DNA of 64,000 nucleotides. Source: a bacterium (GTDB taxonomy: Bacteria > JAJVIF01). Both the position numbers and the translations under genes were made by a program. The notes under the pieces were generated by a model. The model worked only from the letters and a program-made list of their open reading frames with translations, ran no database searches and was not told the origin of the DNA. The number at the start of each line of letters is the position of its first letter. The stretch's first letter is position 1. Location: assembly GCA_022072165.1 (NCBI GenBank), contig JAJVIF010000001.1, positions 957,353 to 1,021,352 of the forward strand. Reading direction: 5' to 3'. Below are positions 23,816-36,558 of this stretch, piece after piece.

Positions 23816-23837
23816 CCCAGCTCAGGACTCCTTTTTC
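23799..23837 (+). terminator. Terminator overlapping the ends of two convergent genes
   Basis: AGGAGTCC (23799-23806) pairs with GGACTCCT (23825-23832), and GAGCT with AGCTC forms an inner stem. Five T residues follow. The 5' arm is the end of the TPR gene, and the 3' arm and T-tract lie inside the last codons of the convergent fumarase gene. Confidence 0.75.
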
Positions 23838-25294
23838 TTCTGGCCTGCCTTGCTCCCTTTACCGGTCAGCGTGCCGGTGAGCTGCCGGAGATTGAGCTGC
23901 CGATCGAGATCGCGCTGGCTCATGATCCCCTGCTCGACCACCATGTCGAGGATGTTGCGATCCTCTTTCACGGCGAGTTTCACCACCGCCGCGGCAGCCT
24001 CGTAACCAATGATCGGGTTCAGCGCGGTGGCGATCTGTGGAGTCCGCAGGAGCCACGACCGGCAATCCTTCTCGTTCGCCTGCATCCCGACAATGCAGCG
24101 CTCGCGGAAGGCATCCACCGATGTCGTGAGAATCTGGCAGGCATGGAGCAGGTTGAACGCCATGACAGGCATCATGACGTTGAGTTCCAGTTGCCCGCCG
24201 GAAGTCGCGGCCCAGACGGTGGTGCAGCATCCGTTGACCTGATAGCAGACCTGACTGAGCATCTCGGCCATCACGGGATTCACTTTGCCGGGCATGATGC
24301 TGGAGCCCGGCTGCACCGCTGGCAGCGCCAGTTCATTGAATCCTGTCCGGGGACCGGAGGCAAGCAGCCGGATGTCGCCGGCGATTTTCTGCAGGCAGCA
24401 GGCGAGGGCGTTCAGGGCTCCGGCTGCGATGTTGGCGGCTTCGGTGTTCTGCACGAAGGCGAAGAGAGACTCGGGGAGGACGAACTTCATCCCCGTTTCT
24501 TTCGCGATGTAGTCGCAGGCTGTCTCGGCGAAACCGGCAGGTGTGTTGATCCCGGAACCGATGGCGTTGCCACCGATGCCAATCTCGAGCAGATACTTCA
24601 CGGCATCCTGCAGGTTCCGGCGATGAATCGCGAGATTGGCGGCATAGCCAAGCATCTCCTGGCTCAGCCGCATGGGGACCGCATCCTGGAGGTGGGTCCG
24701 TCCGGCCTTCAGCACATGATCCCAGGCCTTCGCCTTCGCCCTGAACTCATCTTCCAGTCGCTGAATGCTGGGGAGGAGGTCGTGCATGATCGCCTCCGCA
24801 GTGGCGATGTGCATCGCGACATGAATGGTGTCGTTGGTGGACTGCCCCATGTTGACGTGGTCATTGGGATGGACCCGGGAAAGCCCATCGCCCGTGGCTC
24901 CCAGAATCTGCAGCGCCCGGTTCGCGATCACTTCATTGGCATTCATGTTCTGGCTCGTACCGGCCCCGGCCTGATAGGCATCGACCACGAAGTGGGCATC
25001 CAGTGATCCAGCGATGACTTCATCGCAGGCTTTGAGCAGCGCTGTAATGTCCTTCGCCTTCATACGAGCAGTCAGCGTTCCGAGGTCGCGATTCGCGAGG
25101 GCCGCAGCCTTCTTGATGATCCCCTGCGCCCGGATGAATCGTCGGGGCAACCGGTATCCGGAAACGGGGAAGTTTTCCACTGCCCGCTGGGTCTGCGCGC
25201 CATACAGGGCATCGACGGGGACCCGGACCTCGCCGAGGGTGTCGTGAGTGATGCGATACTGCCCAGTTGCAGCGGGAGTGCGTTTGCCGGCCAT
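23822..25294 (-). CDS. fumC: Class II fumarate hydratase (aspartase/fumarase superfamily)
   Basis: Fumarase adds water to fumarate to give malate in the citric acid cycle. The 490-residue protein has the superfamily signature GSSIMPGKVNPV and the catalytic stretches HPNDHVNMGQSTNDT, GRTHLQDAVPMRLSQE and SQNMNANEVIANRA. The Gly in MPGKVNP and HLQDA favour fumarase. The VP and MGQSTND stretches are partly aspartase-like, so aspartate ammonia-lyase remains possible. The start at 25294 is preceded at six bases by GGAGG and has a TATGAT -10 farther upstream; 22 residues before it are not needed. It ends in a Lys-rich tail. Confidence 0.82.
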   Translation of the reverse strand: MAGKRTPAATGQYRITHDTLGEVRVPVDALYGAQTQRAVENFPVSGYRLPRRFIRAQGIIKKAAALANRDLGTLTARMKAKDITALLKACDEVIAGSLDAHFVVDAYQAGAGTSQNMNANEVIANRALQILGATGDGLSRVHPNDHVNMGQSTNDTIHVAMHIATAEAIMHDLLPSIQRLEDEFRAKAKAWDHVLKAGRTHLQDAVPMRLSQEMLGYAANLAIHRRNLQDAVKYLLEIGIGGNAIGSGINTPAGFAETACDYIAKETGMKFVLPESLFAFVQNTEAANIAAGALNALACCLQKIAGDIRLLASGPRTGFNELALPAVQPGSSIMPGKVNPVMAEMLSQVCYQVNGCCTTVWAATSGGQLELNVMMPVMAFNLLHACQILTTSVDAFRERCIVGMQANEKDCRSWLLRTPQIATALNPIIGYEAAAAVVKLAVKEDRNILDMVVEQGIMSQRDLDRQLNLRQLTGTLTGKGSKAGQKKKES

Positions 25295-25331
25295 GCGGGG
25301 CCTCCGACGAGTGAAATCAATGTGCCCGGGC

Positions 25332-25337
25332 ATCATA
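25332..25337 (-). promoter_or_regulatory. -10 hexamer upstream of fumC
   Basis: TATGAT lies 37 bases before the ATG at 25294, giving a short leader that contains the GGAGG ribosome site. Confidence 0.5.
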
Positions 25338-25397
25338 GCCACGACCGGGGTGGCTCGCATCCATGCAGATCACATTCGCCCACCGCCGTCCCGGTAG

Positions 25398-26351
25398 TCA
25401 GCTCCGCAGTCGCGCGAGGGTGGCGTCGGTGGCTTCCAGCAAGTGGTGCAGGATGCCCGGCTCGAAAACCGCATGGCCCGCATCCGGGACCACAATCAAC
25501 TGGCTCCCGGGCCACGCCTGATGCAGTTCCCAGGCACTTTTCATGGGGCAGACGACGTCATAACGTCCCTGCACAATGGTGCAGGGGAGATGCCGGATGA
25601 CCGGGACCTGTTCCAGCAGATAGTTGTCGGTGGGGAACCAGCAGTTGTGCATAAAGAAGTGATTTTCGATCCGCGCCAGGGCCAGCGCTCGATCCGGCTC
25701 CTCAAAAAGCCCGACACTGACGATATCGATCAGCAACCGGGAGGTCGCAGCCTCGAACTGACTCCAGGCCCGGGCCGCCGCCAGTTGCACCGATGCGTCC
25801 TCAGAGGTTAGCTGCTTGCGGAAGGCGGTGCGCAGATCGTGTCGCTCTGCTTCCGGGATCACGGCGATGTACTGTTCGTAGTAGTCGGGAAAGAGCCAGC
25901 TGGTCCCTTCCTGATAGAAGAAGTCGAGCTCGCTCGGCCGACAGAGAAAGATGCCGCGCAGCAGCAGGCTCTCAACCCGATCGGGATGCGTGATGGCGTA
26001 GCACAGAGCGAGGGTACTCCCCCAGGAGCCCCCGAAGACTGTCCACTTGTCGATGCCCAGATGCTCCCGGATCCGTTCGATGTCCCGGACCAGATCCCAG
26101 GTGGTGTTGTCGGTCAGCTCGGCTATGGGGGTCGAGCGACCACAGCCCCGCTGGTCGAACAGCACGGCATGCCAGTCCGGATGAAAGAAGCCACGATGCT
26201 GGGGGGCTGAGCCGCCGCCGGGTCCGCCGTGCAGGAAGAGCATGGGCGGTCCGCTGGCCGTCCCACACTCTTCGACATAGAGCGTGTGGAGGTCAGAGAC
26301 CGGCAGCTGATGGGTGGCGAAGGGCTCGGTGGCCGGGTAAGGGGTCCGCAT
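25398..26351 (-). CDS. pip: Proline iminopeptidase
   Basis: This 317-residue alpha/beta hydrolase has the family markers LHGGPGGGSAP (oxyanion region), DQRGCGRS and the nucleophile elbow GGSWGSTLAL, followed by an all-helical cap, then GRYDVVCP (acid) and DAGHAVFEPG (catalytic His). It removes N-terminal proline from peptides in the cytoplasm. The ATG at 26351 lies eight bases after TATCCT; the more upstream ATG overlaps this promoter. It is transcribed separately from the resB gene before it. Confidence 0.93.
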   Translation of the reverse strand: MRTPYPATEPFATHQLPVSDLHTLYVEECGTASGPPMLFLHGGPGGGSAPQHRGFFHPDWHAVLFDQRGCGRSTPIAELTDNTTWDLVRDIERIREHLGIDKWTVFGGSWGSTLALCYAITHPDRVESLLLRGIFLCRPSELDFFYQEGTSWLFPDYYEQYIAVIPEAERHDLRTAFRKQLTSEDASVQLAAARAWSQFEAATSRLLIDIVSVGLFEEPDRALALARIENHFFMHNCWFPTDNYLLEQVPVIRHLPCTIVQGRYDVVCPMKSAWELHQAWPGSQLIVVPDAGHAVFEPGILHHLLEATDATLARLRS

Positions 26352-26359
26352 GGCGCGAC

Positions 26360-26365
26360 AGGATA
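26360..26365 (-). promoter_or_regulatory. -10 hexamer of pip (leaderless)
   Basis: TATCCT ends eight bases before the ATG at 26351. Confidence 0.55.
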
Positions 26366-26382
26366 GCCGCAACCAGTCCCCC

Positions 26383-27900
26383 TTAGAACGCCAAATCGCC
26401 CTTCAGGTCTTCTTCGGGGTCGATCGCCTTCTGCCCGAGCCAGCGACGGGTGAAGAGCCGCAGGGCGGTCCGCCCGGCGCGGTACTTCGTTCCCCACCAG
26501 ACGCGGGTGCCGCCACCCTCCAGGGGCTGGAAAATCAGCCGCGCATCGTGGTACGGGAAAAAGAGCGGATAGAGAATCCCGAAGACGCAGACCGCAAATG
26601 CGCTGTACATGATGGGAACCCCACGGTCCCGCTTTACCTGGAGGATCGTGGCTTCCCGCACGCCCTTCAGGGTGATCGTCACCGGGGTGCCATCAGCACC
26701 CGGCACAGTCTGCGGGACATCCTGCACCAAAATCCCGGTCCCCTCGCCTAACTCCTGATAGGGGAAGACGCTGAAGCGGTTCTCAGGATCATTGAGCGGT
26801 CGCCCTTCCCAGAGCATGACCCGGAAGGGGAGCAATTCCCCCCGGGACCCATCGGGGTTCAGCCAGTACCCGCCGGCGACACTCCCGGAAGGCTTGATCA
26901 TGACCGGTTTGGGCAGGAACGGCAGGGGCAGTAGCTGGTCCGGCTGAAACTGGATGACCGTGTCAACACCGTTCCCCTGGAAGCGGATTTCCGGCAACTG
27001 CGCGAAGGAGGACTGGTAGTACTTCACATGGTCGTAGACCAGCGGGATGTTGACCTCGATGGTCTCTTCTTTCAGGACCTCGCCGGTCTCGCTCAACACC
27101 TGCAACCGGCTCTTGAAATCGGTCGGGAAGACCTTCGCAAAGAAGGTCATGTCGTTGGGGAAGTCTTTGGGTTCGTATTCCTGGTAGTACTCCGCAAGCC
27201 GGATCCGCTGGCCGGTGTCGGTCTGCACATGCACTTCGCCCTCGCCAATGATGGCTGTCGTTTCTTTGAGGGAGGACAAAACACCGACAATCGCCCCAAC
27301 TGCCATCACGATGAACGCGAAGTGCATCGCGACATTGGCCCACTTCGCCGTGAGCCCACGCCGCAACAGAATCTGCGTCTCCCCTTTCGTCCCTTCCCGG
27401 GTGAACAGGGTGTAGTGACGCGCCTTGAAGGAGGCCATGAGGGCTTCGATGGATAGCTCCGGTAGCTCCAGATAACCGTTGAAGCGAGCGCCTTCGATTT
27501 CAGAGAGCGACGTATGGGGTTTCACGTTTGCTGCCAGCCTTCGGGCAGCGGTGAGTCGACCAAAAGCGCAGAGCGTGACACTGACCACCAGCAGGGCGAC
27601 CGTGGCGATGAAGTAGCCGGTCTTGAAGATGCGGTCAAACCCCAGGATGACAATCCACTTGTACTGCTCCGGCGTGTACCACTGAAGATAGTCCGCCGGG
27701 GTGTCACCGAAGGCCGCCTGGGGGACCGCGGCTCCGATGATGTTCATGACGGCGATGACCAGCAGGAGGAAAATGCCGAATTTGAGCTGCTGGATGATGT
27801 GGAGGAAATCCAGCCACGCCATCCAGAGGAGGTCAAAGAGTCCCAGGCCCTGATCGCTGGTGGCCGGTCGTGCGCCCGCCGGCTGAACGGTCGTTGCCAT
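26383..27900 (-). CDS. resB: ResB-like cytochrome c biogenesis protein
   Basis: ResB (Ccs1) works with ResC/CcsA in system II to deliver heme to apocytochrome c on the outer face of the membrane. The 505-residue protein has the ResB layout: membrane helices near residues 35-55, 85-105 and 190-210, a large extracytoplasmic region (about 215-425), and a last helix near 440. No ccsA gene is beside it. It begins a few bases after the rex stop and is third in gatB-rex-resB, so Rex probably controls it together with the redox state. Confidence 0.85.
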   Translation of the reverse strand: MATTVQPAGARPATSDQGLGLFDLLWMAWLDFLHIIQQLKFGIFLLLVIAVMNIIGAAVPQAAFGDTPADYLQWYTPEQYKWIVILGFDRIFKTGYFIATVALLVVSVTLCAFGRLTAARRLAANVKPHTSLSEIEGARFNGYLELPELSIEALMASFKARHYTLFTREGTKGETQILLRRGLTAKWANVAMHFAFIVMAVGAIVGVLSSLKETTAIIGEGEVHVQTDTGQRIRLAEYYQEYEPKDFPNDMTFFAKVFPTDFKSRLQVLSETGEVLKEETIEVNIPLVYDHVKYYQSSFAQLPEIRFQGNGVDTVIQFQPDQLLPLPFLPKPVMIKPSGSVAGGYWLNPDGSRGELLPFRVMLWEGRPLNDPENRFSVFPYQELGEGTGILVQDVPQTVPGADGTPVTITLKGVREATILQVKRDRGVPIMYSAFAVCVFGILYPLFFPYHDARLIFQPLEGGGTRVWWGTKYRAGRTALRLFTRRWLGQKAIDPEEDLKGDLAF

Positions 27901-27903
27901 GTC

Positions 27904-28629
27904 TTAGTCGTCGTCCTTCCAGGCGGTTGCTGGCGCCGGTCCTACGCCACCTTCCGCGATGAGCATATAGCTTAGCAAGCGCAGTTCCACCGTGATGTCC
28001 ACATGTCGCACACTGATACCGTCCGGGACATTTAGGGTCACCGGAGCGATGTTCAGCAGCGCCCTGACACCGGCCGCGACCAGGCGATCCGCCATCTCCT
28101 GGGCTACACGGGCCGGGACCGTCAGAATCGCGAGCTGGATTCCCTCTTTGCGGCAAACCGAGTCCAGGGAGCTGATCGGATCGATACGGACGCCCTCGAG
28201 GGTCGTCCCGATGAGGTTCGGGTCCACATCAAAGAGGGCCCGCAGGACAAAGCCCCGCTCCACCATGCCGGTATAGCGCGAAAGGGCGGTCCCGATGTGG
28301 CCGACCCCGACAATGGCCATGGGCCACTCGCGATGCAGGCCAAGCACGGCCGAAAGGCGCTCCAGCAGCATCGAGACGCTGTACCCCTTGCCCCGAACCC
28401 CAAACTCCCCGACATACGCCAGATCTTTGCGCAACTGCGATGCCTTCACACCGACTGTGGTGGCCAGCAACTCGGAGGAAATCGACTCCTGGCCCTCCTG
28501 GCTAAAGTGTTGCAACACCCGGATGTATCGATAAAGTCGACGAATGGTGACCAGCGGAATGCCCGGCAGGTGATGCTCCACTGCATCCCGACGTCCCTGG
28601 GGCAATTTGCGAGGATTGGCAGCTGTCAT
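27904..28629 (-). CDS. rex: Redox-sensing repressor Rex
   Basis: Rex binds DNA when the NADH/NAD ratio is low and leaves it when NADH is high. The 241-residue protein has an N-terminal winged helix (VTIRRLYRYIRVLQHFSQEGQESISSELLATTVGVKASQLRKDL, about 25-70) and a Rossmann domain with the NADH loop IVGVGHIGTAL. A C-terminal helix that swaps between subunits follows. The start overlaps the gatB stop by four bases. A matching operator lies upstream of gatB at 30247-30266, so it likely represses its own operon. Confidence 0.95.
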   Translation of the reverse strand: MTAANPRKLPQGRRDAVEHHLPGIPLVTIRRLYRYIRVLQHFSQEGQESISSELLATTVGVKASQLRKDLAYVGEFGVRGKGYSVSMLLERLSAVLGLHREWPMAIVGVGHIGTALSRYTGMVERGFVLRALFDVDPNLIGTTLEGVRIDPISSLDSVCRKEGIQLAILTVPARVAQEMADRLVAAGVRALLNIAPVTLNVPDGISVRHVDITVELRLLSYMLIAEGGVGPAPATAWKDDD

Positions 28630-30113
28630 GCCCCACCGGACTCCCGGCGCGCTTCCAGTCGCTGGCGAATCATGACTGGCAACAGCGTGGGGTTCGCCTT
28701 GCCACCACTGGCTTTCATCACTTTCCCCACGAACGCGCCGAGCAGGGCTTCCTTGCCACCCAAAAATTGCCCGACCAGGGGAGCGGAGTCATTGAGCACC
28801 TCTTCAATCAATGCTTCAAGGGCTCCTGTGTCCGAAATCTGCTCCAGCCCCCGGGCAGAGATGACCTCGGCGATTGTTCCGCCATCCCGGATGACAGCCT
28901 CCCAGACTTCTTTGCCCTGGGGCTTGGAAATGCGACCAGCAGCGATTGCACCGACCAGGTCAGCGAGGTGCCGGGGGGTGATATCCAGCTCCGATAACTC
29001 GCGTCCCAGGACATTCATCAACCGGTAGGTCTCGCCCGTGAGCCAGACCGCGGCCTCCCGGGAGTCTGCCCCCAGGTTAAGGGCTTCCCGATAAAAGGTC
29101 GCCGCGTTGCGTTCTACCAGGAGGTCAGCGGTGTAGTAATCGAGGCCGTACTCGTCCATCAGGGCAGTCTTGATAGCCAGCGGCGCGGCTTCCAGCGTGG
29201 CACGCAGCGAGTCGACCTGCCCCGAATCGATGACCAGCGGTGGCAGGTCGGGCTCAGGGAAGTAGCGATAATCCGCTGCAGTCTCCTTGACCCGCATGAC
29301 GAACGTCGCCTGCTTCTTTTCATCGAATCCCCGGGTCTCCGGTCGCAATCCATGCAGCGCTCCCGTTTCCAGCAACTCCTGCTGGCGGACCGCCTCGAAC
29401 AGGATCGCCTTACCGACCTGGCTGAAGGAGTTGATGTTTTTCACTTCAGTTTTGGGATTCAGCAGGTCGGTCCCGGCAGGTCGCACCGAAATGTTCGGCT
29501 CGCACCGCAGATGTCCCTCTTCCATGTTGGCCTGCGATGCGCCAACGTTTCGCAGGATTCCCTGCAATTCACGCAGATAGAGTTCTGCCTCTTCGGCGGA
29601 ACGGATGTCAGGCTCGGTCACGATCTCCATGAGCGGGACTCCCGCCCGGTTGTGATCCAGGAGGGTCTCGCCGGTCTCCAAATGCAGGAGTTTCGCGGTG
29701 TCTTCTTCAAGATGAACACGCCGGATTCGGATGCTGCGGATGGAGCCATCACTCAAACGAACCGACAGCGCACCGTGCTCTCCTAATGGATACTCAAACT
29801 GGCTGATCTGGTAGCCCTTGGGGAGGTCGGGGTAGAAGTAGTTCTTGCGGGCGAACTGGCTCACCGGATTGACCTGACACCCCAGGGCTAGCGCGATCTT
29901 AAGTCCGAGCCGCACCGCTTCAGCGTTCACCACAGGCAAGCTCCCCGGCCAGCCCAGACAGACCGGACAGACATGGCTATTGGGAGCATCGCCAAAGGCG
30001 TTTTCGCAGCCGCAGTACATCTTGGTACGGGTCTGCAACTGGACATGGGTTTCCATGCCTACAACAGTTTCCCAGGCGGCGGGTGTGGCAGTGACAGGGG
30101 GAGTGGCGGACAC
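28626..30113 (-). CDS. gatB: Aspartyl/glutamyl-tRNA amidotransferase subunit B
   Basis: GatB phosphorylates and amidates misacylated Glu-tRNA(Gln) or Asp-tRNA(Asn) with GatA and GatC. The 495-residue protein begins with VVGMETHVQL and has the GatB catalytic cradle (LDHNRAGVPLMEIVTEPDI; LRCEPNISVRPAG), then the helical and YqeY-like tail that grips the tRNA elbow. It uses a GTG start seven bases after GGAGGG. Finding it ahead of rex and resB in one redox-controlled unit is unusual, since gatB usually sits with gatA and gatC. Confidence 0.97.
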   Translation of the reverse strand: MSATPPVTATPAAWETVVGMETHVQLQTRTKMYCGCENAFGDAPNSHVCPVCLGWPGSLPVVNAEAVRLGLKIALALGCQVNPVSQFARKNYFYPDLPKGYQISQFEYPLGEHGALSVRLSDGSIRSIRIRRVHLEEDTAKLLHLETGETLLDHNRAGVPLMEIVTEPDIRSAEEAELYLRELQGILRNVGASQANMEEGHLRCEPNISVRPAGTDLLNPKTEVKNINSFSQVGKAILFEAVRQQELLETGALHGLRPETRGFDEKKQATFVMRVKETAADYRYFPEPDLPPLVIDSGQVDSLRATLEAAPLAIKTALMDEYGLDYYTADLLVERNAATFYREALNLGADSREAAVWLTGETYRLMNVLGRELSELDITPRHLADLVGAIAAGRISKPQGKEVWEAVIRDGGTIAEVISARGLEQISDTGALEALIEEVLNDSAPLVGQFLGGKEALLGAFVGKVMKASGGKANPTLLPVMIRQRLEARRESGGA

Positions 30114-30217
30114 GACAGGACCCTCCGGGGGGAACAGAGCCTGCAGTGGGGCGCTGGTGTCGAGCCAGGCCCGATTTTCCAGTCATGATGCGGCTTCGCG
30201 CACGATTTTCTGGAAGC

Positions 30218-30243
30218 AAAACGCCGGGGCCGACGCCTCCGGC
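30218..30243 (-). terminator. Terminator-like hairpin upstream of gatB
   Basis: On the minus strand GCCGG and CCGGC pair around a GC-rich loop and are followed by GTTTTGC. It may end transcription of the gene at 30271-31872. It also lies downstream of the Rex-box promoter, so it could act as an attenuator in the gatB leader. Confidence 0.5.
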
Positions 30244-30246
30244 GAG

Positions 30247-30266
30247 CTTGTGAAGTTTATCACAAG
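30247..30266. promoter_or_regulatory. Rex operator with an embedded -10 for gatB-rex-resB
   Basis: The plus strand reads TTGTGAAGTTTATCACAA (30248-30265). It has one mismatch to the Rex consensus TTGTGAA-N4-TTCACAA and is an inverted repeat with 7-bp arms CTTGTGA/TCACAAG. The minus strand contains TAAACT (30254-30259), the only TANNNT hexamer between the upstream stop codon and gatB. Rex bound here would cover the -10. It starts five bases after the stop codon of the 30271 gene. Confidence 0.85.
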
Positions 30267-30270
30267 GGGC

Positions 30271-31872
30271 TTACCACCCCATGTCCGCCGACAGATCATC
30301 AGGCCGGACAACGAGGTAGGTCACCATGTCCTCATAGCCGTCGCCCTCGGTGATGAACAGACCATCTTCGGTCAGGGTGTAGTTGTCGACCGCATCGGCG
30401 TAGTCATCGGAGTGTCCGTAGACCAGGAGCTGACAGCCGATGTTCTTCCCCTTTTGCCGCTGCGTGACATAGGTGAAATTGCCGGGGCTGCGGGCATCAA
30501 ACTCGACCGCTGCCATGGCGTCCCTGGTGAACGGATTGACAGGCATCTCGGCCAGGAACCCGGTGCGTACCAGTTCAGCGATGCTGGTGGGGTATTGCCC
30601 ACGGTCAAGGTAGTAATCATCCAGCGCCAACTCAATGTCACCGGCGGCTTTCATCAGCGCCTGCCGCTTCCTGCTCGCCTGCTCGCTCCGGATCATGTCG
30701 CTGGCTGCCGACACCATGCCGAGTTCATAGGCCTTATAGAGCGCATGCACCAACTGGCGGTCCGCCTTCACGGTCATGGTGAAGGCATGGGGGGTGGCGG
30801 AGCGGAGCACGGTCACTTCGCCCATCTGGAGATTCAGCACAGCAGCCGGATCTGGCATCCCGCTGGGAGTCGCTTCCGGACCCGCCGCAGAAAGCGCCAG
30901 ATCGACTGCCCAGGCCGGGACCTGCTGGCGGATCTTTTCCACATTCAGCCGAGTCTGATAGACATACTCCGGCAGCAGGATTTTGGTCGAGACCAGGGCT
31001 TCCTGCAGGGTCTTTTCGGCGGTAGGGATATCAGTTGCCAGGACCGCCAGCCGCCCCTCCGTGAACATGACCAGCGGGATCGGGAAGCGATCACTTTTTT
31101 GCAGGACCTGATAGGTCCGTTCGTTGTGGGTCGAGTTGCTCCAGGTGAGCTTCCGCATCCCGGTGTAGGCCAGCAGGTGTTCAGCGAAGCCAGCCGCCGA
31201 CTCGTCATACTCCACCAGCATCGAAACGTCGGCCTTAAGCGCCATCGGTTCCGCGTTCCAGAGGACAAAGTGGATGGCGTCGGCACCGCTCAGTACCGCC
31301 TGCAATTTGGGGAGGTACTCGTGAAAGATGCTCAGCGCGCCATGAACTTCCCGCATCCCAAAGGGGGCCTCTGGGCTGGTCATCAGTTCAGCCTTCGTCT
31401 CCATACTTTCGGCGCACATGGTGAGGTAGTCGCCTGGACGCGAAAGAGTCGTGGCCATCATAAAGTCAGCGGGTGCCAGTTCCCGACCAAACGTGGACCG
31501 GGTCCCGGCATGAGTCAGCCAGCGTCCGACCGGCGTCCCCTCCCCAGCGGGATCAAAGCTGATGGTGAATTCTTCCTCAAAGCCGGAGTCATCAAGGCGG
31601 GTCTTTTGCCGAAACTCGCGGATGTCCGCCAGCCCCAGCCCATGCAGCACCACCATCATCGTTCGAAACGACTCCAGGGCCTCCGGATCCTCGGCAAACT
31701 CCGCTTCCAGCTTTGCCAGCAGCTGTTCCATCCCTTGCATGACATAGGCCCCGTCATAGACCATGTCCGATTCCAGGCGGATCAGGGGATCGGCAGGACG
31801 GGCATCGACAGTCGCTGGGATCGCCAGGGTCGTGAGGGCAAGGAGAGTACCGGCCAGTGAGAGCGCGCGCAT
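30271..31872 (-). CDS. Unknown secreted protein with a pseudopilin-like C-terminal domain
   Basis: The 533-residue protein has a signal peptide (MRALSLAGTLLALTTLAIPATVDA). The central 380 residues have no domain I recognise. The last 130 residues (about 405-533) read IELALDDYYLDRGQYPTSIAELV, then NPFTRDAMAAVEF and LLVYGHSDDY. They resemble the C-terminal globular part of GspG-type pseudopilins, but the N-terminal prepilin helix and cleavage site are absent, so it is not a pilin. GGAGG precedes the ATG by 11 bases. Confidence 0.7.
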   Translation of the reverse strand: MRALSLAGTLLALTTLAIPATVDARPADPLIRLESDMVYDGAYVMQGMEQLLAKLEAEFAEDPEALESFRTMMVVLHGLGLADIREFRQKTRLDDSGFEEEFTISFDPAGEGTPVGRWLTHAGTRSTFGRELAPADFMMATTLSRPGDYLTMCAESMETKAELMTSPEAPFGMREVHGALSIFHEYLPKLQAVLSGADAIHFVLWNAEPMALKADVSMLVEYDESAAGFAEHLLAYTGMRKLTWSNSTHNERTYQVLQKSDRFPIPLVMFTEGRLAVLATDIPTAEKTLQEALVSTKILLPEYVYQTRLNVEKIRQQVPAWAVDLALSAAGPEATPSGMPDPAAVLNLQMGEVTVLRSATPHAFTMTVKADRQLVHALYKAYELGMVSAASDMIRSEQASRKRQALMKAAGDIELALDDYYLDRGQYPTSIAELVRTGFLAEMPVNPFTRDAMAAVEFDARSPGNFTYVTQRQKGKNIGCQLLVYGHSDDYADAVDNYTLTEDGLFITEGDGYEDMVTYLVVRPDDLSADMGW

Positions 31873-31948
31873 GTGCAGAGAAGCCTCCGAAGAGATGGTG
31901 TCCTTGACGGGTTACGGTAGCACAGCGACCCGTTGCACAATGCGGCGT

Positions 31949-33166
31949 ATGACGCTACGCCTGCTGACTGCCGGGGAATCGCACGGACCGGGGCTGACCG
32001 GCATTCTGGAAGGCCTGCCCGCCGGGCTTGCCCTGCCGCTTGACCGGATAGATGCAGAACTTACCCGTCGACAGCAGGGGGTCGGTCGGGGCGCACGAAT
32101 GCAGATTGAGCAGGACCGGATTACCTGCACCGGTGGCGTGCGTCATGGGATCACGCTGGGGAGTCCCGTGTGCCTGTGGCTCCCCAATCGCGACTTCGAG
32201 AACTGGCAGGAGCGGATGCAGCCAGGTCCCCTGCCTGGAGGAGCTACTCCACCAGCGCCAGTGACGCTGGTCAGGCCGGGGCACATTGATCTCGCCGGGA
32301 GTCTGAAGCTGGCGCATTTCGATGTCCGCAACACCCTGGAGCGGGCCAGTGCCCGGGAGACCGCGATGCGGGTCGCCCTCGGCACCTGCGCCCGCATCCT
32401 GCTGGAAGCCTGCGACATCCACATCACCAGTCGCCTGTTGCAGTACGGCACGTACTCGTTTCCGCCGTATGAACCTGCTTTCCCGACCTCCCGCGACTGG
32501 GAGGAACACCGGGAGGCCTGCCTGACTCAGGGGGCATCAGCGCTCACTGCAGCGACTTCGGAACTGCAATCAGCCGCAGAGGAGGCACGGGCAGCAGGGA
32601 CCTCCCTCGGGGGCAGTTTTCAGGTGTTGGCTTACGGGCTCCCTCCCGGACTCGGGCACTACATCCAATGGGATCGCCGTCTGGATGGACGTCTCGCCCA
32701 GGCACTGATGAGCATCCACGCCGTCAAGGCCGTGGGCTTTGGCGCAGGCGATTCCCTTGCCGGGATGGTCGGGTCGGAGAGCAATGACGCTCTCTTCGTT
32801 CGAGATCCAGCAGAGCGACGACCGGGCGGTCCCTGGTGGAAGCGAACGAAAAACTATATGGGGGGCCTGGAAGGCGGGCTGACGAACGGAGAGCCGCTCA
32901 CCGCGACCCTCACCCTCAAGCCGCTCTCGACACAGACCACCGCGCTCCCCAGCATCGACCTGGCGACCGGTGCGCCGGCCTCCGCATTAGTCGAGCGGAC
33001 AGATGTCGCGGTGGTGGAGGCAGCCGCCGTGGTCGCCGAGGCGATGGTTGCTCTGGTACTGGCCGATGCGCTCATGGAGCAATGTGGCGGCTCGGCCCTC
33101 GTGGATGTCGAGGAGAACTACCGGGCGTACCGGAAGCGGGTATTTCGCGAGCCGTCTGGCAGCTAG
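31949..33166 (+). CDS. aroC: Chorismate synthase
   Basis: AroC converts EPSP to chorismate, the last step of the shikimate route, with reduced FMN as cofactor. The 405-residue protein has the signatures TAGESHGPGLTGILEGLPAGL, RRQQGVGRGARMQIEQD, LKLAHFDVRNTLERASARETAMRV and GGLEGGLTNGEPL. I start at the ATG at 31949, which gives the usual MxLRxLTAGESHG beginning; an in-frame ATG at 31940 is also possible. The gene ends against a hairpin shared with the convergent ABC binding-protein gene. Confidence 0.95.
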   Translation: MTLRLLTAGESHGPGLTGILEGLPAGLALPLDRIDAELTRRQQGVGRGARMQIEQDRITCTGGVRHGITLGSPVCLWLPNRDFENWQERMQPGPLPGGATPPAPVTLVRPGHIDLAGSLKLAHFDVRNTLERASARETAMRVALGTCARILLEACDIHITSRLLQYGTYSFPPYEPAFPTSRDWEEHREACLTQGASALTAATSELQSAAEEARAAGTSLGGSFQVLAYGLPPGLGHYIQWDRRLDGRLAQALMSIHAVKAVGFGAGDSLAGMVGSESNDALFVRDPAERRPGGPWWKRTKNYMGGLEGGLTNGEPLTATLTLKPLSTQTTALPSIDLATGAPASALVERTDVAVVEAAAVVAEAMVALVLADALMEQCGGSALVDVEENYRAYRKRVFREPSGS

Positions 33167-33192
33167 CAGTATCAACATTTTGCGAAGATGCG

Positions 33193-33225
33193 AAAAGCAA
33201 CCACGCCGGGGTCTCCCCCGGCGTG
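33193..33225 (-). terminator. Terminator between convergent aroC and ABC binding-protein genes
   Basis: CACGCCGGGG and CCCCGGCGTG form a perfect 10-bp stem with a 4-base loop. On the minus strand it is followed by TTGCTTTT, which favours it ending the binding-protein transcript; it may also slow plus-strand transcription from aroC. Confidence 0.75.
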
Positions 33226-33250
33226 TGACAAGTCTGCCGGTGAGCGTCGC

Positions 33251-34975
33251 TTACTTCTCGAACCAGACGTTCTCCAGGCGGACATGCTGGATGGTGTCGG
33301 CGGAGTCCACCGCGGTGAATTTCATCCCTTTGACGCTCTTTTTCACGAGGATTTCATTGATACCGTGCTCGATGATAGCCCAGGGGGCATCATTGAGGAT
33401 CAGCCGTTCCGCCTGGGTGTAGAGCTTCATGCGGGTGGCGTGGTCGGTGTTCCGCTGGGCTTCTTCCAGCAACTTGTCGACCTGCGGGTTGCTGTAGAAG
33501 CTGTGATTCCCCAGAGGACCAGCGTTCGCCGAATGGAACATGACATAGAGCCAGTTGTCCGGATCGGGATAGTCCTGGATCCAGCCCATCCGGAAGATCT
33601 GCGGCTCGCCTTCATCGACGGCTTTGATGTAGGCCGCCCATTCCATGGTCCGGGTATCGGTGGAGATGCCAACCTTCTTGAGGTCATTCTGGATCGCTGC
33701 TGCGATGTCGGGATGGGATCCCTCTTTGTTGAACCAGAGGGTGATCGGCGGCAGCCCTTCGCCGTTGGGGTAGCCGGCTTCTTTCAGGAGTTCGCCAGCC
33801 TTTGCCGGATTGAACTCATAGTTCGGGACATCGGTGGGGTTCTTGTAATCCCCGAGGCCTGGCGGGATGACTTTCCAGTAGGGAATCCCCTGACTCTTCA
33901 TGATGTCCGTCACGATGTAGTCGCGATCAATGGCGTAGTTGACTGCCTGGCGCAGGAGGAGCGCTTTGCGCTGCGCTGCGGCGTCATTCGCCTTTTCCGG
34001 CGGAACCCCAAACGGCTCCTTGATCATGTTGAAGCCGTAGTACATGAGCGACGCCAGCGGGTATCGGTGGAGCTCTTCCTGCATCGAGGCATCATCTTTC
34101 ACCAGCGGCCAGACGGCGGTCGGCTCGACCCAGCAGTGATGCAGATTCCCGCGCTTGTACTCCTCGAACTGTTGCCGGTTCTCTTTGATGACCTTGTAGA
34201 CCACGCCGGAGAGCTTGGCTGGTCCCTTCCAGTAGTCCTTATTGGCCTCCAGGACGATGTGCTGGTTCTGCTTCCAGTCGACGAACTTGAAGGGTCCGGA
34301 CCCGACCGGATGAAGGGTGAACTGGTCATCGCCGACCTTCTTCACTTCCTCTTCGGGCACGATGGCGAAGGTGTTCTGCGCCAGGTGATAGATGAACGGC
34401 GCATACGGCTCGGCGAGCTTGATAGTGATCTGCGTGGGGCTCTCCACGATGACTCCGGGCAGGTCTGCCGCTGTGCCAGCATTGAACTCTTTGCCTCCCA
34501 GAATCGGCGTGGCCCAGTTCGACCGCTTGGACGCGACCTTCGGATCAAGAATGCGCTTGATGGTGTACTCCACGTCTTTCGCTTCGACCCGGCGACCGTT
34601 GTGAAACGTTGCCTTATCGGTCAGGGTGAAGCGGTAAGTGACGTTATCGGCATCGATGGACCAGGCGGTCGCGATTTCTGGCGCGACATTGAGGTCATCA
34701 TCCAGCGTCACCAGCGTGTCGAAGATCTGGTTGCAGACACTGTCGGATGTCGTATCCGAAATCTGCGCCGGATCCAGTGTTGGCGGATTGGAAGTTGTCG
34801 GAAAAAAGTAGGTGTTTCCGTCCTTGGTCCACTCCGGCAGATTGGTGGTATCGGCTTCGCTGCCCGATCCCCCGTCAGCAGATTTCTCTGCCTGCTGCCC
34901 CGAGTCACCACTGCCACAGCCCGTCACTACCGTCAGGGCCAGCAGGAGCAGGCTCCAGCGCCACAGTTGCTGCAT
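33251..34975 (-). CDS. Oligopeptide/nickel-type ABC transporter substrate-binding lipoprotein
   Basis: The 574-residue protein has a lipobox LTVVTGC (Cys20) and the family-5 binding-protein fold: TLDPAQISDTTSDSVCNQIFDTLVTLDDDLNVAPEIATAW near residue 70, then the TFHNGRRVEAKDVEYTIKRI and NYAIDRDYI regions. Such proteins capture oligopeptides, dipeptides or metal chelates outside the membrane. The permease and ATPase genes are not next to it, so they must be elsewhere. I start at 34975, where GGAGGG lies upstream and the signal peptide begins; 83 residues before it are not used. Confidence 0.93.
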   Translation of the reverse strand: MQQLWRWSLLLLALTVVTGCGSGDSGQQAEKSADGGSGSEADTTNLPEWTKDGNTYFFPTTSNPPTLDPAQISDTTSDSVCNQIFDTLVTLDDDLNVAPEIATAWSIDADNVTYRFTLTDKATFHNGRRVEAKDVEYTIKRILDPKVASKRSNWATPILGGKEFNAGTAADLPGVIVESPTQITIKLAEPYAPFIYHLAQNTFAIVPEEEVKKVGDDQFTLHPVGSGPFKFVDWKQNQHIVLEANKDYWKGPAKLSGVVYKVIKENRQQFEEYKRGNLHHCWVEPTAVWPLVKDDASMQEELHRYPLASLMYYGFNMIKEPFGVPPEKANDAAAQRKALLLRQAVNYAIDRDYIVTDIMKSQGIPYWKVIPPGLGDYKNPTDVPNYEFNPAKAGELLKEAGYPNGEGLPPITLWFNKEGSHPDIAAAIQNDLKKVGISTDTRTMEWAAYIKAVDEGEPQIFRMGWIQDYPDPDNWLYVMFHSANAGPLGNHSFYSNPQVDKLLEEAQRNTDHATRMKLYTQAERLILNDAPWAIIEHGINEILVKKSVKGMKFTAVDSADTIQHVRLENVWFEK

Positions 34976-35060
34976 GAGATCCCTCCTCGCACGTTGCCTT
35001 TGAGTTAGCTGGGGAGTATCCCCTGCCTGTTCATCGTGCGCAACGCCGCTCAGTATGCCC

Positions 35061-35097
35061 GAAAACGAAACCGCGCCCCGGGTGTCCGGGACGCGGT
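35061..35097 (-). terminator. Intrinsic terminator after metK
   Basis: On the minus strand ACCGCG-T-CCCGG pairs with CCGGG-G-CGCGGT (12 bp with one G-T pair) and is followed by TTCGTTTTC. Confidence 0.8.
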
Positions 35098-35126
35098 CTT
35101 CAGACGGTGGTCGCTGGCAGAAAGCT

Positions 35127-36344
35127 TCAGGCGACCGCGGCCGGCTCCTTGAGACCCGCTTCGGACCGGAGGAGTTCGACTTTGTCGAGGCGTTCCCAGG
35201 GGAGATCGACATCGGTCCGGCCAAAGTGTCCGTAGGCGGCGGTCGGACGATAAATCGGACGTCGGAGGTCGAGGGTCGAGACGATAGAGGCCGGCCGCAG
35301 GTCGAAGTGCGCCGCGACCAGACTTTCGATCAGTTCTTCGGAAATCCCGGGGGCATTGGTGCCGAAGGTCTCCACCAGCACCGACAGCGGCTTGGCGACC
35401 CCGATGGCATAGGCGACCTGGATCTCGCAGCGCTGAGCCAGCCCTGCTGCCACGACATTCTTGGCGATGTAGCGCGCCGCATAAGAAGCGCTGCGGTCGA
35501 CCTTTGTCGGGTCCTTGCCCGAGAACGCGCCGCCTCCATGCCGCGCCCAGCCACCATAGGTGTCCACGATGATCTTGCGCCCGGTCAGCCCGGAGTCGCC
35601 GTGCGGGCCACCCGTCACAAACCGTCCGGTGGGATTGGTCAGATAGCGCGTTTCGGCACTGGTCATCTCGGCCGGAACGACGGCATTAACAACGTGCTCC
35701 CTGATGCCGGCGGAGATTTCATCATGGCTCACATGGGGGTCGTGCTGCGTGGAGATCAGCACGGTCGTGATCTCGGAAGGTTTGCCATCCCGATAGCGGA
35801 TGGTGACCTGCGACTTACCATCGGGACGCACCCATGGGAGGGTGCCATTCTTCCGGACTTCCGCCAGGCGACGGGTCAACCGGTGGGCGTAGGCGATTGG
35901 CGCGGGCATGTACTCCGGCGTCTCGTTCGTGGCGTAGCCGAACATCAGGCCCTGGTCGCCCGCTCCGATCTGGTCGAGGGGATCACTCCCCGACTCCCGG
36001 TGCTCCAGTGCCGCATCGACTCCCTGCGCGATGTCGTGCGATTGCGGATCGAGGGAGACCAGCACCCCGCAGGTGTCGCCCATGATCCCAAATTCGGCCT
36101 TGGTGTAACCGATCTCGAGGACGGTCCGCCGTACGACAGTCGGAATGTCCACATAGGCGTTGGTGGTGATTTCTCCCATCACCAGTACGAGGCCTGTGGT
36201 GAGCGCGGTCTCGCACGCCACCCGGCTCATCGGGTCCTTTTCGAGCAGGGCATCCAGGACAGCGTCAGAAATCTGATCGGCCATTTTGTCGGGATGGCCC
36301 TCAGTGACCGACTCAGAAGTGAAGTGAAAGTCGTGCTTCGGCAC
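35127..36344 (-). CDS. metK: S-adenosylmethionine synthetase
   Basis: MetK joins ATP and methionine to make SAM. The 405-residue enzyme begins [31 protein letters not shown], the universal MetK start, and contains [16 protein letters not shown] and [18 protein letters not shown], which hold the ATP and metal sites. The GTG at 36344 has GGGGAG six bases upstream. The 45 residues upstream belong to the riboswitch leader and are not protein. Expression is very likely under a SAM-I riboswitch at 36430-36558. Confidence 0.97.
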
Positions 36345-36403
36345 AGGCGACTCCCCAGCGGTCCGCACCAGGGCGGAAACGGAATGCGTAAGCGGGCATG
36401 GCA

Positions 36404-36429
36404 GGGGAGGTGCCGGCCTGATGGCCGGC
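36404..36429 (-). promoter_or_regulatory. Expression-platform hairpin and anti-SD of the metK riboswitch
   Basis: Immediately after the riboswitch P1, GCCGGCC and GGCCGGC form a perfect 7-bp hairpin with an ATCA loop (36412-36429) but no T-tract. CTCCCC at 36404-36409 is complementary to the metK ribosome site GGGGAG at 36351-36356. This suggests control of translation start rather than termination; it is inference. Confidence 0.5.
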
Positions 36430-36558
36430 GTCTTATCTGTCCAGCGACCAGTCGTGCGTCGCTGGCAGGATTTGGCACCTCGCACCGGGCAGCGCTGGCT
36501 GCTGGTGCTGGTTGCCGGGCTTCCTCGGGCCAGTCCCTCTGCCTGCTCTCGATAAGAC
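36430..36558 (-). promoter_or_regulatory. SAM-I (S-box) riboswitch of metK
   Basis: The leader contains the S-box landmarks in order: GTCTTATC and GATAAGAC as an 8-bp P1, GAGAGC, GAGGGACTGGCCCG, GAAGCCCGGCAACC, GGTGCCAAATCC, and a P4 stem CCAGCGA/TCGCTGG before CAGATAAG. These are the conserved elements of the SAM-I aptamer, which switches off methionine and SAM genes when SAM is high. The element is 129 nt and sits 85 nt upstream of the metK GTG. Confidence 0.93.

Follow-up and report, generated by a model that had tools for sequence, protein, structure and literature searches.

A predicted Rex operator (minus-strand sequence CTTGTGATAAACTTCACAAG) was found at 30247-30266 of the window, the whole 64-kb stretch of DNA analysed here, and we consider it likely, judging from the sequence, that it lies over an extended -10 element driving gatB, rex and a resB-like gene, probably together with the next two genes. 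Specifically, the 18-bp core TTGTGAAGTTTATCACAA, at 30248-30265, departs at a single base from TTGTGAANNNNTTCACAA, the published Rex consensus (Ravcheev et al. 2012, cited in PMC5317091 and PMC6391272). It was the sole match with ≤1 mismatch in the window, where 0.0019 would be expected by chance (0.10 per genome); these composition-based expectations were computed at 62% GC, and the genome regions that we read had 61-66% GC. A 7-bp inverted repeat, CTTGTGA...TCACAAG with a 6-nt spacer, fills 30247-30266 and reaches one base beyond the 18-mer on each side, and five bases separate the core from 30271, the end of the upstream minus-strand ORF. An earlier sequence-only reading had called the site a Rex operator with a single consensus mismatch, a 7-bp inverted repeat and a five-base distance from the upstream stop; all three details hold, and the identity itself is supported by the rarity of the motif and by a genome-wide set of like sites. 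Given a consensus match above chance, a Rex protein with conserved DNA- and NAD-binding domains, and similar sites ahead of respiratory and redox genes, we read the site as a genuine Rex operator within a clear predicted Rex regulon, and we infer that Rex is its binder.

A pattern search of the genome (3.26 Mb, 4 contigs, 99% complete) returned six sites with ≤1 mismatch to the published consensus (two perfect and four with one mismatch), compared with ~0.1 expected. Their similar flanks yielded the genome's own longer motif, GCTTGTGA-N6-TCACAAGC, which was present in five exact copies, in two copies with one mismatch (the gatB site and etfBA) and in one with two mismatches, 5' of a PaaA/PaaC-like gene. 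At ≤3 mismatches, this motif gave 14 matches genome-wide vs. 2 for the reversed control. The gatB site differs from the 22-bp motif only at the outermost G, and its mismatch to the published consensus falls at a position that is free in the genome's own motif. The predicted targets (G000, L005-L010) were sdhCAB, a haem-copper oxidase with a FixO/cytochrome c subunit, complex I, an acyl-CoA dehydrogenase, etfBA, and an Rrf2 regulator with a cytochrome c. Like sites before these genes constitute a predicted respiratory Rex regulon, which provides a sketch of such a regulon in a bacterial class that has been sampled only sparsely.

Within the class, comparisons were made with three relatives, of which G001 and G003 belong to one family and G002 to another. 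Their predicted targets (L098-L111) included thiolase/hbd, PFOR, sdhCAB, an acetyl-CoA synthetase-like gene, malic enzyme, Hdr-like and NuoE-like genes, glutamate dehydrogenase and etf. It could be argued that a CRP/FNR-family regulator owns the sites, given that its core TGTGA-N6-TCACA lies within the motif, and that the rex operon is just one of its targets. The invariant core in the genome is TTGTGA-N6-TCACAA with a mixed position 7 (A 8, T 4, C 2 of 14 half-sites), and the sdh, nuo and oxidase targets could fit such a regulator. Nonetheless, all 14 half-sites in the genome begin with TTGTGA, position 7 in the relatives is mostly A (19/24) as in the Rex consensus, and PFOR, thiolase, malic enzyme, NuoE-like and ETF genes are Rex-like targets. 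The site also stands at the head of the rex operon in this genome and ahead of rex in G002, and we regard ownership by a CRP/FNR-type protein as quite improbable. With regard to the Rex protein, the rex product can be aligned over its length with solved structures of Rex, among them that of Thermus (entries 1xcb and 3ikt). SQLRKDLAY, the recognition helix by homology, and the wing GEFG-RG-GY were invariant in the Rex proteins of the class, which is consistent with a single DNA target common to them. The rare motif, the respiratory targets, the opening of the operon of Rex itself by the site, and the conserved helix and wing all support the reading of a Rex operator over the gatB promoter.

The sequence-only reading had also noticed a -10 hexamer inside the operator, had described it as the only one before gatB, and had proposed that Rex blocks its own promoter. 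TAAACT does lie within the operator (minus strand, 30259-30254), and the operator's own TGA stands immediately 5' of it, giving a putative extended -10 (TGA-TAAACT, 30254-30262). TAAACT matches 4/6 consensus -10 bases, no -35-like hexamer was found at the usual spacing from it, and a sigma-70 scan of the region called no promoter. It is the sole TANNNT between 30330 and 30080. The claim of an "only -10" is nevertheless weakened by near-matches of lower quality before gatB (GAAAAT at 30210 and CATCAT near 30187), by possible read-through from the upstream gene, and by the expectation that an apparently essential gatB is not fully shut off.

To evaluate the register of the embedded hexamer, each of 20 Rex-like sites of the class was oriented by its downstream gene, and operator positions 7-12 were compared. 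TANNNT occupied these positions in six gene-facing cases vs. none in the opposite direction, and TGATANNNT was found at six class sites, all gene-facing, and at none when reversed. These were the gatB site, the site of the acyl-CoA dehydrogenase, the sites of sdhCAB and the Hdr-like gene in G001, and those of etf and rex in G002; at the Hdr-like gene, the embedded -10 is a perfect TATAAT. Summed over the 20 sites, which were picked by eye and include two homologous PFOR sites, the match to TATAAT was 69 gene-facing vs. 44 in reverse (random flips, P = 0.004). Since Rex sites are near-palindromic, Rex itself supplies no reason for a -10 to point in one direction. At the complex I site, the operator covers the -35 instead (TTCACA, 17 bp, TATAAT). 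This overlap and the gene-facing register support occlusion of RNA polymerase by Rex as the likely mode of action. Given that the putative extended -10 is embedded in the operator, and that five further Rex sites of the class, one of them at the rex promoter of G002, carry it gene-facing in the same register, Rex probably represses its own promoter at the gatB site, as had been proposed. The arrangement would be a compact promoter: a Rex half-site would lend its TG to the extended -10 element, and the operator spacer would carry the hexamer. It recurs in three families of the class.

The genes downstream are tightly packed on the minus strand. gatB (28626-30113; Asp-tRNA(Asn)/Glu-tRNA(Gln) amidotransferase subunit B) was above the cut-off of NCBIfam NF004012 and carries the Pfam domains GatB_N and GatB_Yqey; it has a GTG start with GGAGG just 5' of it. 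It overlaps rex (27904-28629; redox-sensing transcriptional repressor, above the cut-off of NCBIfam NF003992) by an ATGA, and the resB-like cytochrome c assembly gene (26383-27900; Pfam ResB, 1e-43) starts 3 bp past the end of rex. This packing bears out the view of gatB, rex and resB as one unit. Close same-strand spacing makes a prolyl aminopeptidase gene (25398-26372; above the TIGR01249 cut-off) a probable member and an aspartate ammonia-lyase/fumarase family gene (23822-25360; above the NF008909 cut-off) a possible one. No operator was found directly 5' of rex itself, which leaves the gatB operator as the only visible route to autoregulation. The upstream ORF (30271-31872, minus strand, 533 aa) matched no family in NCBIfam or Pfam, and its codon-position GC resembles that of the neighbouring genes. 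Further upstream, a SAM riboswitch (RF00162, 77.6 bits; 36430-36558, minus strand) lies directly 5' of metK. The genes metK, aroC and rex and the gene of an oligopeptide-binding protein lie close together both in the window (27904-36485) and in the distant relative G002 (L047:1822-6962), a long-standing neighbourhood within the class.

The genome encodes AsnRS, one gatA and one gatB, and only weak matches to GlnRS, none of them above cut-off; GlnRS is present in all three relatives. With no recognisable GlnRS and a single gatB, Gln-tRNA would depend on GatCAB and gatB is probably essential in this genome. Apparent essentiality implies either that control by Rex is partial or that gatB has a second source of transcript; it adds interest to the case and argues against a strict switch. 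It is possible, although on balance we find it unlikely, that Rex binds the site while gatB is mostly transcribed from elsewhere, by upstream read-through or from a weak promoter below the hairpin, so that the operator would chiefly adjust the expression of rex and resB or form a partial roadblock. This would suit an essential gatB, the weak -10 without a -35, and an upstream gene on the same strand with a weak terminator-like stem alone between. Set against it are the recurrence of the embedded gene-facing -10 in relatives and the lack of any other TANNNT before gatB. The hexamer's 4/6 match, the missing -35, the gatB-rex-resB order without the site in G001 and the harm that tight repression of gatB would cause also weigh against our preferred reading, in which the embedded promoter drives the operon. 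We hold as rather doubtful the stronger proposal that, without GlnRS, NADH/NAD+ sets Gln-tRNA supply through the operator-embedded -10 of the sole gatB. If true, redox state would throttle translation along with the respiratory chain; an apparently essential tRNA-amidation gene under a redox repressor makes a testable case.

A GC-rich stem-loop followed by UUUU (30218-30244, minus strand; stem 30244-30222) lies in the predicted leader, and the sequence-only reading had suggested that it could attenuate expression. In favour of such a second layer of control are the nine-pair stem and its U-tract in the leader; the fold has an energy of approximately -18.5 kcal/mol. This is no better than expected from shuffled sequences (z = -0.69 for the surrounding 56 nt; z = -1.32 for the whole leader), the U-tract is only four long, and a terminator scan did not call the stem-loop. 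The -10 at 30259-30254 predicts an RNA start near 30247, which places the hairpin ~4 nt into the RNA and leaves no room 5' for a sensing or antitermination element. No Rfam leader family was found at the hairpin, nor was a leader terminator above chance with alternative pairing or a sensor. A dispersed repeat was ruled out, as the hairpin is single copy in the genome. We consider an attenuator extremely unlikely; more plausibly, the stem is a weak terminator belonging to the upstream gene or protects the 5' end of the RNA.

Under the preferred reading of a Rex-repressed embedded promoter, and assuming that this Rex responds to NADH in the direction described for characterised members of its family, Rex would sit on the site at low NADH/NAD+ and keep RNA polymerase off. 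Bound Rex would hold down the production of itself and of the genes transcribed with it. A rise in NADH would release Rex, and the operon would be expressed with complex I, succinate dehydrogenase, the terminal oxidase, ETF and acyl-CoA dehydrogenase. gatB, being apparently essential, would probably be only partly repressed.

A scan of the relatives did not recover the site upstream of gatB. The gatB-rex order is kept in G001 and G003, and thus in a second family of the class, and resB follows in G001. No site with ≤3 mismatches was found between gatA and gatB in G001; on the contig where gatC stands with the first part of gatA, the closest operator match has three mismatches and lies inside gatA. 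The G003 contig breaks off within gatB. In G002, rex lies behind aroC with its own operator, TTGTGATAAAATTAACAA, carrying the same embedded -10, and no match to gatA or gatB was found in this genome. As G001 and G003 share the gene order and G002 shares the predicted autoregulation, the combination was seen only in the window's genome. Outside the class, gatB and rex formed an operon in 0/46 genomes having both genes (coordinates compared by eye), which agrees with the earlier impression that gatB in a Rex operon is unusual, and a contig scan of the genomes returned only distant Rex loci without gatB. Two loci were set aside as candidates. In the low-GC genome G100 (L112), from outside the class, gatB and rex point towards each other across a single intervening gene and form no operon. 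In the unrelated genome G028 (L022, L113), the GatB match beside rex reads as a GatE/GatB-like gene divergent from it, again not an operon, and the best intergenic site has at least four mismatches. GTGTCAACCGATTGACAG lies between or near the starts of these two genes, and the locus is possibly a second link between amidotransferase genes and rex.

Our text searches linking Rex with GatB, Rex with ResB, or redox control with the amidotransferase returned no relevant paper, and the Rex-regulon papers compared here, which cite Ravcheev et al. 2012 for the consensus, do not mention gatB as a member of a Rex operon. Autoregulation of Rex and overlap of operator and promoter are known (PMC5355995; PMC6391272; PMC2883068), and occlusion of RNA polymerase has been proposed for Rex of S. 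avermitilis (PMC5355995) and S. aureus (PMC2883068). The closest likeness is to rex-hemAC1DB of Streptomyces avermitilis (PMC5355995), where rex also lies in a respiration-related operon that Rex represses through a promoter operator, and where nuo is also a target. It differs in that the S. avermitilis operator lies over the -35 and rex is accompanied there by haem genes, whereas here a putative extended -10 is covered and the partners are gatB and resB. Rex regulons with TTGTGAANNNNTTCACAA (PMC5317091, PMC6391272) share with this genome the operator sequence, the Rex family, energy-metabolism targets and, as predicted here, autoregulation, but the motif here is longer and relaxed at position 7. 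With regard to gatCAB operons, G001 has gatC-gatA in one contig and, on a second, the last part of gatA with gatB-rex-resB, probably as one operon; in contrast, gatA adjoins gatC ~0.8 Mb from gatB in the window's genome, with no Rex site nearby, and gatB stands alone beside rex. The kind of system is known; what is new is its proposed link to gatB where the genome has no recognisable GlnRS.
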